This document shows positions 50,098 through 50,432 of a DNA stretch of 61,872 bases, piece by piece. Within the stretch, counting starts at the first letter, position 1. Every line of letters begins with the position of its first letter. The notes below the pieces were generated by a model. That model had not been told where the DNA came from. It did no database searches and saw only the letters and a list, made by a program, of their open reading frames with translations. Source of the DNA: a virus; IMG/VR virus record IMGVR_UViG_3300032677_000032, positions 1-61,872 of that record, one strand, 5' to 3'. Made by a program: the position numbers and the translations under genes.

Positions 50098-50117
50098 GCT
50101 CTTATTTATATGGAATG

Positions 50118-50194
50118 GTCTACCATGAGAGATTTGAACTCCCGATCTCCTGGCCCCAAACCAGGCGGATTACCAGACTTTCCTAATGGTAGAC
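50118..50194 (-). tRNA. tRNA-Pro (TGG)
   Basis: Acceptor GTCTACC/GGTAGAC, anticodon stem CCTGG/CCAGG with loop TTTGGGG (anticodon TGG), T loop TTCAAAT. CCA appears not to be fully encoded. Confidence 0.9.
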
Positions 50195-50213
50195 AATAAA
50201 CTTTATTCGTGAC

Positions 50214-50349
50214 TGAAAATCAGGTGACCCAACCCGTTAGCCGTATGCTCCATTAACTATTTAGATGAACAATGAACGTTCAAGTTCTGGTCCTGATTTT
50301 CATACCATCTAGCGCCTTACGTCTAGTTCGTAATAGATCATTGTTCATC
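50214..50349 (-). ncRNA. Two interleaved 11-bp helices between tRNA genes (pseudoknot-like)
   Basis: Perfect 11-base inverted repeats, GATGAACAATG (minus, 50349-50339) with CATTGTTCATC (50274-50264), and TGAAAATCAGG (50302-50292) with CCTGATTTTCA (50224-50214). The arms alternate A1-A2-B1-B2, the order of an H-type pseudoknot. Neither pair folds into a canonical tRNA cloverleaf that I could find. Could be a processing signal, an ncRNA or decayed tRNA genes. Confidence 0.5.
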
Positions 50350-50358
50350 AAAATAGTC

Positions 50359-50432
50359 TGGTGCCGATAAGAAGAATCGAACTCCTGTCAGAGGGTTACA
50401 AATCCACTGTATTACCACTATACTATATCGGC
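50359..50432 (-). tRNA. tRNA-Thr (TGT), CCA encoded
   Basis: Acceptor GCCGATA/TATCGGC, discriminator A, CCA; anticodon loop TTTGTAA (TGT); T stem AGGAG/CTTCT with TTCGATT. The anticodon stem has mismatches. Confidence 0.85.

Follow-up and report, generated by a model that had tools for sequence, protein, structure and literature searches.

A conserved hairpin RNA of phage tRNA arrays lies beside a truncated tRNA-Glu gene at a viral locus with interleaved inverted repeats

Phage tRNA arrays are already known to hold RNAs of obscure role, namely GOLLD, ROOL and RNAs C and D of T4. The two T4 RNAs (species 1 and 2 RNA, genes rnaC and rnaD) are annotated as stable RNAs and lie beside tRNAs, on the same strand, without being tRNAs themselves; a T arm of the tRNA type is present in RNA C. 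Functional RNAs can also be separated by RNase III processing stems, which in phage and rRNA transcripts are long imperfect helices with an internal mismatch. To our knowledge, such stems share no invariant sequence, and RNase III requires none. GOLLD (RF02032) and ROOL are structured phage RNAs of unknown function that occur near tRNA islands (PMC12286853).

We describe herein a family of hairpins in such arrays, known from sequence alone, one member of which lies in a stretch of viral DNA of 61,872 nucleotides (hereafter, the window). T4 RNA C and D are its nearest known counterparts by setting, and GOLLD and ROOL by company. Like the T4 RNAs, the hairpins are non-tRNA elements beside tRNAs on the same strand, and some of their interiors have a T arm, as RNA C does; unlike the hairpins, RNA C and D are without the GAUGAAC/GUUCUUC closing stem and differ in sequence and fold, and inspection of rnaC and rnaD revealed no stem motif shared with the family. 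RNase III stems resemble the family in being long mismatched helices between functional RNAs, but the family stem has an invariant sequence, and its cleavage is only putative. Several interiors carry T arms or give weak tRNA scores, as might tRNA-like RNAs, whereas the extended stem, the missing CCA and the character of most interiors set the family apart from tRNA genes. With respect to GOLLD, the hairpin is a separate element of ~100 nt outside the Rfam model, and in six phages a member lies on the 3' side of GOLLD at a distance of 7-27 nt.

In the window, intact genes for tRNA-Thr(UGU) (anticodon tgt, 50359-50432) and tRNA-Pro(UGG) (anticodon tgg, 50116-50192) both lie on the - strand, so that the transcribed order is tRNA-Thr, the repeat region and tRNA-Pro, with tRNA-Thr immediately upstream of the hairpin. 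The initial annotation described two perfect 11-base pairs alternating over 136 bases of this gap, with no clear cloverleaf. Both pairs are present, and no tRNA is called inside the region. The first (50214-50224 with 50292-50302) is a perfect 11 bp; the second (50264-50275 with 50338-50349) is a perfect 12 bp rather than 11, within 20-nt arms that are 95% complementary, and the full stem reaches 20 bp if a single mismatch is allowed. The arms of the two pairs are interleaved. When 50193-50358 was shuffled with dinucleotide composition preserved, one inverted repeat of 11 or longer arose in 4 of 2000 shuffles and two in none of 2000. For the 11-nt antisense match, the corresponding chance count was 8 of 5000. 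Comparison with homologues in relatives resolves the region into two independent parts. The proposal of an uncharacterised ncRNA is supported for the hairpin half, which belongs to a conserved family, and that of a degenerate tRNA for the other half, which is a tRNA-Glu remnant; a tRNA-array processing element, also proposed there, is the mechanism that we tentatively prefer for the hairpin. It is very probable that the locus consists of a tRNA-Glu remnant and an RNA element whose family is conserved and unlisted, with the helix that crosses between them being accidental. A promoter and terminator scan gave nothing above chance; the sequence TATAAATA at 50098-50115 (-), between tRNA-Pro and the start of a 76-aa ORF, resembles a T4-type late promoter.

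The remnant, at 50200-50251 (-), corresponds to the 5' half of a gene for tRNA-Glu(UUC), as shown by its alignment to the intact tRNA-Glu of a sister locus (L127:5299-5376), an ARAGORN-called gene with anticodon UUC to whose 5' half it is nearly identical. It retains the 5' strand of the acceptor stem, the D arm and the anticodon arm (anticodon at 50215-50217), while a 29-nt deletion between AAGT repeats has taken the T arm and the 3' acceptor strand. Since that deletion is accompanied by the absence of a complete cloverleaf or any tRNA call at 50200-50251, we regard it as a pseudogene. One arm of the 11-bp pair, CCTGATTTTCA (50214-50224, -), is the anticodon stem-loop of this remnant, and the other, TGAAAATCAGG (50292-50302, -), lies inside the variable interior of the hairpin, where UGAAAA is the complement of UUUUCA in the loop of tRNA-Glu. 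Such a match to a UUC loop is presumably to be expected of all GAA loops that have U33 and A37, anticodon-type GAA and UUC loops being naturally complementary.

Sister loci, defined as IMG/VR loci that encode the flanking proteins of the window, exist in three allelic states. L127 has tRNA-Thr, a short palindrome (ACTATTTTGATGATCAAAATAGT), the intact tRNA-Glu(UUC) and tRNA-Pro, as called by ARAGORN; the window and L121-L123 have the long hairpin and a tRNA-Glu short of 29 nt; and L124-L126 and L128, which are 56 nt shorter than the window, have an unchanged hairpin and have lost tRNA-Glu entirely. The hairpin is thus present where tRNA-Glu is gone. These three states indicate that the 11-bp pair is not a kept feature, and that it joins the anticodon stem-loop of a decaying tRNA-Glu to a separate hairpin. 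At L127:5270-5300, the short perfect palindrome occupies the site of the long hairpin; the right arm has been altered to agree with the left one, a change that template switching in replication would be expected to produce.

The hairpin itself is a 104-nt element (50255-50358, -), assigned to the new family by a 97% identical copy in another virus and by family covariation. Its closing stem pairs ACTATTTTGATGAACAATGA (5' arm, 50338-50357, -) with TCATTGTTCATCTAAATAGT (3' arm, 50256-50275, -), and includes a U.U mismatch (50350 opposite 50263, -) that is conserved across the family. The variable interior (50276-50337, -) is predicted to fold into two small arms, giving a three-way junction; at 58-62 nt it is comparable in size to a tRNA body, and it contains a loop with GAA. 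Neither RF00005 nor ARAGORN matched 50255-50358, the interior gave no tRNA match even at E values up to 10, and among the 4227 families of Rfam 15 nothing came near its gathering score with either the window element or a canonical member, L295. The near-matches mir-1255, snR78, SAM-SAH and MIR5743 were rejected as far below threshold, reflecting long stems or short matches, and homology to tRNA-Glu or tRNA-Phe, which the anticodon-like match might suggest, was discarded because no tRNA model matched. GOLLD (RF02032) is absent from the window.

The core of the hairpin recurs in three further records, one of which, G001 (85,755 bp), carries the 97% identical copy. Where window proteins have detectable homologues in G001, the identity is only about 25-76%, which argues that the hairpin, or the array that holds it, moved horizontally. 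G001 also has 36 tRNAs, the same tRNA-Glu sequence as L127, several related hairpins and a GOLLD RNA (RF02032, 191 bits); the copy of the window hairpin begins 26 nt after the GOLLD match and outside it, and the partners of the 11-bp pair are 15 kb apart. Among named phages, blastn found no credible relative. Two matches in bacterial genomes were dismissed, as they look like chance and, read by eye, appear to fall inside a protein-coding gene; most matches in a scan with only 14 bases, too few for the purpose, were likewise due to chance.

Pattern scans followed by a stem filter yielded 32 distinct members, 85-125 nt long, on 21 virus contigs. A member was defined by a GATGAA...TTC[AT]TC closing stem with one or more U.U mismatches and with pairing in both the inner and the outer stem, and by location on the tRNA strand; the window hairpin fits this definition. 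The closing stem is ~23 bp (consensus GACTTATTAGATGAACACA...TGTGTTCTTCTAATAAGTT) with an invariant core of GATGAA and TTC-TC (GAUGAA and UUC-UC in RNA), and the interior that it encloses is hypervariable. At least one U.U occurs at stem position 9 or 12 in 32 of 32 members, and an A.A on the transcribed strand in none. Across 24 arm pairs, changes on both sides were seen at 12 of 23 base pairs, double-change cells numbered 76 against 25.4 in shuffles, and pairing of the arms stood at 90%, dropping to 39-48% when they were slid. Because the stem filter by which these arms were selected favours pairing, a separate test was made with no pairing requirement. It returned 154 motif matches, 28 within 700 bp of a tRNA and 126 distant. 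Of the former, 27 lie on the tRNA strand, and the inner stem was paired at 4/4 positions in 27 of 27; among the distant matches, 4/4 inner pairs occurred in 12 of 126, and some of the distant matches are real members in other phages, such as L191 and L234. No description of the element was found in the part of the literature that our search covered.

The placement of the hairpins points to a role in the array transcript. For 27 members a downstream tRNA is in view: 18 lie 3-10 nt ahead of it, and the other nine are 60-610 nt away. All six of the scanned family loci that bear GOLLD (G001/L159, L189, L190, L296, L325 and L330) have a member downstream of the GOLLD match, at a distance of either 7 nt or 26-27 nt; since it was for their hairpins that these loci were fetched, the figure describes the position of the hairpin near a GOLLD and not the frequency of hairpins among GOLLDs. 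Four of four GOLLDs from cultured phages (Phaeobacter MD18, DSS3_MAL1, Xanthomonas XacN1 and Vibrio D69) have no such hairpin nearby, and hence the hairpin does not belong to GOLLD proper.

Other structured RNAs were also noted. A second, unrelated-looking type was seen at L190:10251-10414 (-), L259:8760-8918 (-) and L296:1327-1487 (+) (positions on the named strand), with a conserved interior of ~115 nt (GGGTAGCGTGTATGGACGCATGCAC...GGAAGCACC...) and closing stems of 22-24 bp that differ in sequence; in L190 and L296 it directly precedes tRNA-Thr. A third type (L168:11458-11610 and L295:8238-8396) is tRNA-like with a T arm, has a closing stem of 17-21 bp (GTTATGCTATTACTGC/GCAGTAATAGCGTAAC) and sits about 95 nt upstream of tRNA-Glu. 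A phage tmRNA gene (L191:352-757, and also in L179 and L206; ARAGORN tag AHNDNDFAAVRMSA; Rfam tmRNA_permuted) lies about 0.8-1.3 kb upstream of family hairpins.

Our explanation as a whole, that two unrelated things lie side by side and that the hairpin is a processing or insulating element or else a stable RNA, seems to us about evenly balanced between right and wrong. Its mechanistic part taken alone, a hairpin that processes and insulates the tRNA-array transcript, is offered more tentatively. The hairpin would be transcribed together with the array, and a double-strand RNase of the host, for instance RNase III, would bind and cleave its closing helix, or else a different protein would bind there. 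A cut there would separate the upstream RNA (a tRNA or GOLLD) from the downstream pre-tRNA and leave a short 5' leader for RNase P, and, once excised, the hairpin may survive as a stable RNA in the manner of T4 RNA C and D. As the cutting enzyme, RNase III is the natural candidate; yet it needs no invariant sequence, while the GAUGAA/UUC-UC core is invariant, and so this core and the ever-present U.U suggest a more specific binder. Neither a phage-encoded RNase III nor a Ro60/TROVE protein was found in 13 carrier records, many of them fragments. Further points against this mechanism are the nine members at 60-610 nt from the next tRNA and the lack of the full hairpin in L127, where it is therefore dispensable; nor would a bare processing signal require interiors of such length and folding.

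Those interiors could instead be the functional part. The excised hairpin might be a stable tRNA mimic closed by a long stem, acting as a decoy or competitor (for example, of tRNA-cutting defence nucleases or tRNA-binding enzymes), with an interior diversified by an arms race. A clear T arm is visible in about 6 of 32 interiors, ARAGORN calls a tRNA in two, that of L364 scores 18.6 bits against the tRNA model (gathering score, 29), and the tRNA-like size and GAA loop of the window interior, along with the two stable non-tRNA RNAs of the T4 array, fit the idea. Most interiors, however, have no recognisable T arm, that of the window matches no tRNA model, and it is the stem rather than the interior that is conserved, all of which makes the mimic unlikely. 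A general antisense-to-tRNA function of the interiors was rejected, as a match is confined to the window/G001 element and the others gave p values of 0.48-1.0 against shuffles. A broader version of the mimic reading, in which a protein-recognised, invariant U.U stem displays interchangeable tRNA-mimic interiors and spreads horizontally with GOLLD and tRNAs, the products being decoys against host tRNA-targeting defences or cargo or partners of a GOLLD cage, strikes us as decidedly improbable.

Very doubtful, too, is an element that works as DNA, its arms being sites of recombination or mobility, as in hairpin cassettes or MITE-like inverted repeats, and the RNA incidental. Transfer between divergent phages, conserved inverted termini around variable interiors, and a palindrome in L127 of the kind that template switching would leave are all compatible with it; but although both strands were scanned, 27 of the 28 near-tRNA matches are on the tRNA strand, with U.U and never A.A there, compensatory changes occur in the inner and outer stem, the short distance to tRNAs and GOLLD is the same, and no target-site duplication was seen. 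Finally, the pseudoknot or pair of mutually exclusive folds put forward in the initial annotation, for which the rarity of two interleaved repeats in shuffles speaks, is refuted as a conserved feature and scarcely credible, given that four sisters drop the tRNA-Glu half with its 11-bp arm and keep the hairpin unchanged, another keeps tRNA-Glu and drops the hairpin, the G001 partners are far apart, antisense to tRNAs is no family property, and the matching sequence resembles anticodon loops, for which complementarity between GAA and UUC is the rule.

Under the processing and insulating role that we tentatively prefer, a hairpin with an invariant stem, placed next to GOLLD and ahead of tRNAs, is a handle on how the arrays are cut apart. 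The family is also a concrete target for small-RNA sequencing, and its distribution indicates that tRNA arrays swap RNA modules between distantly related phages.
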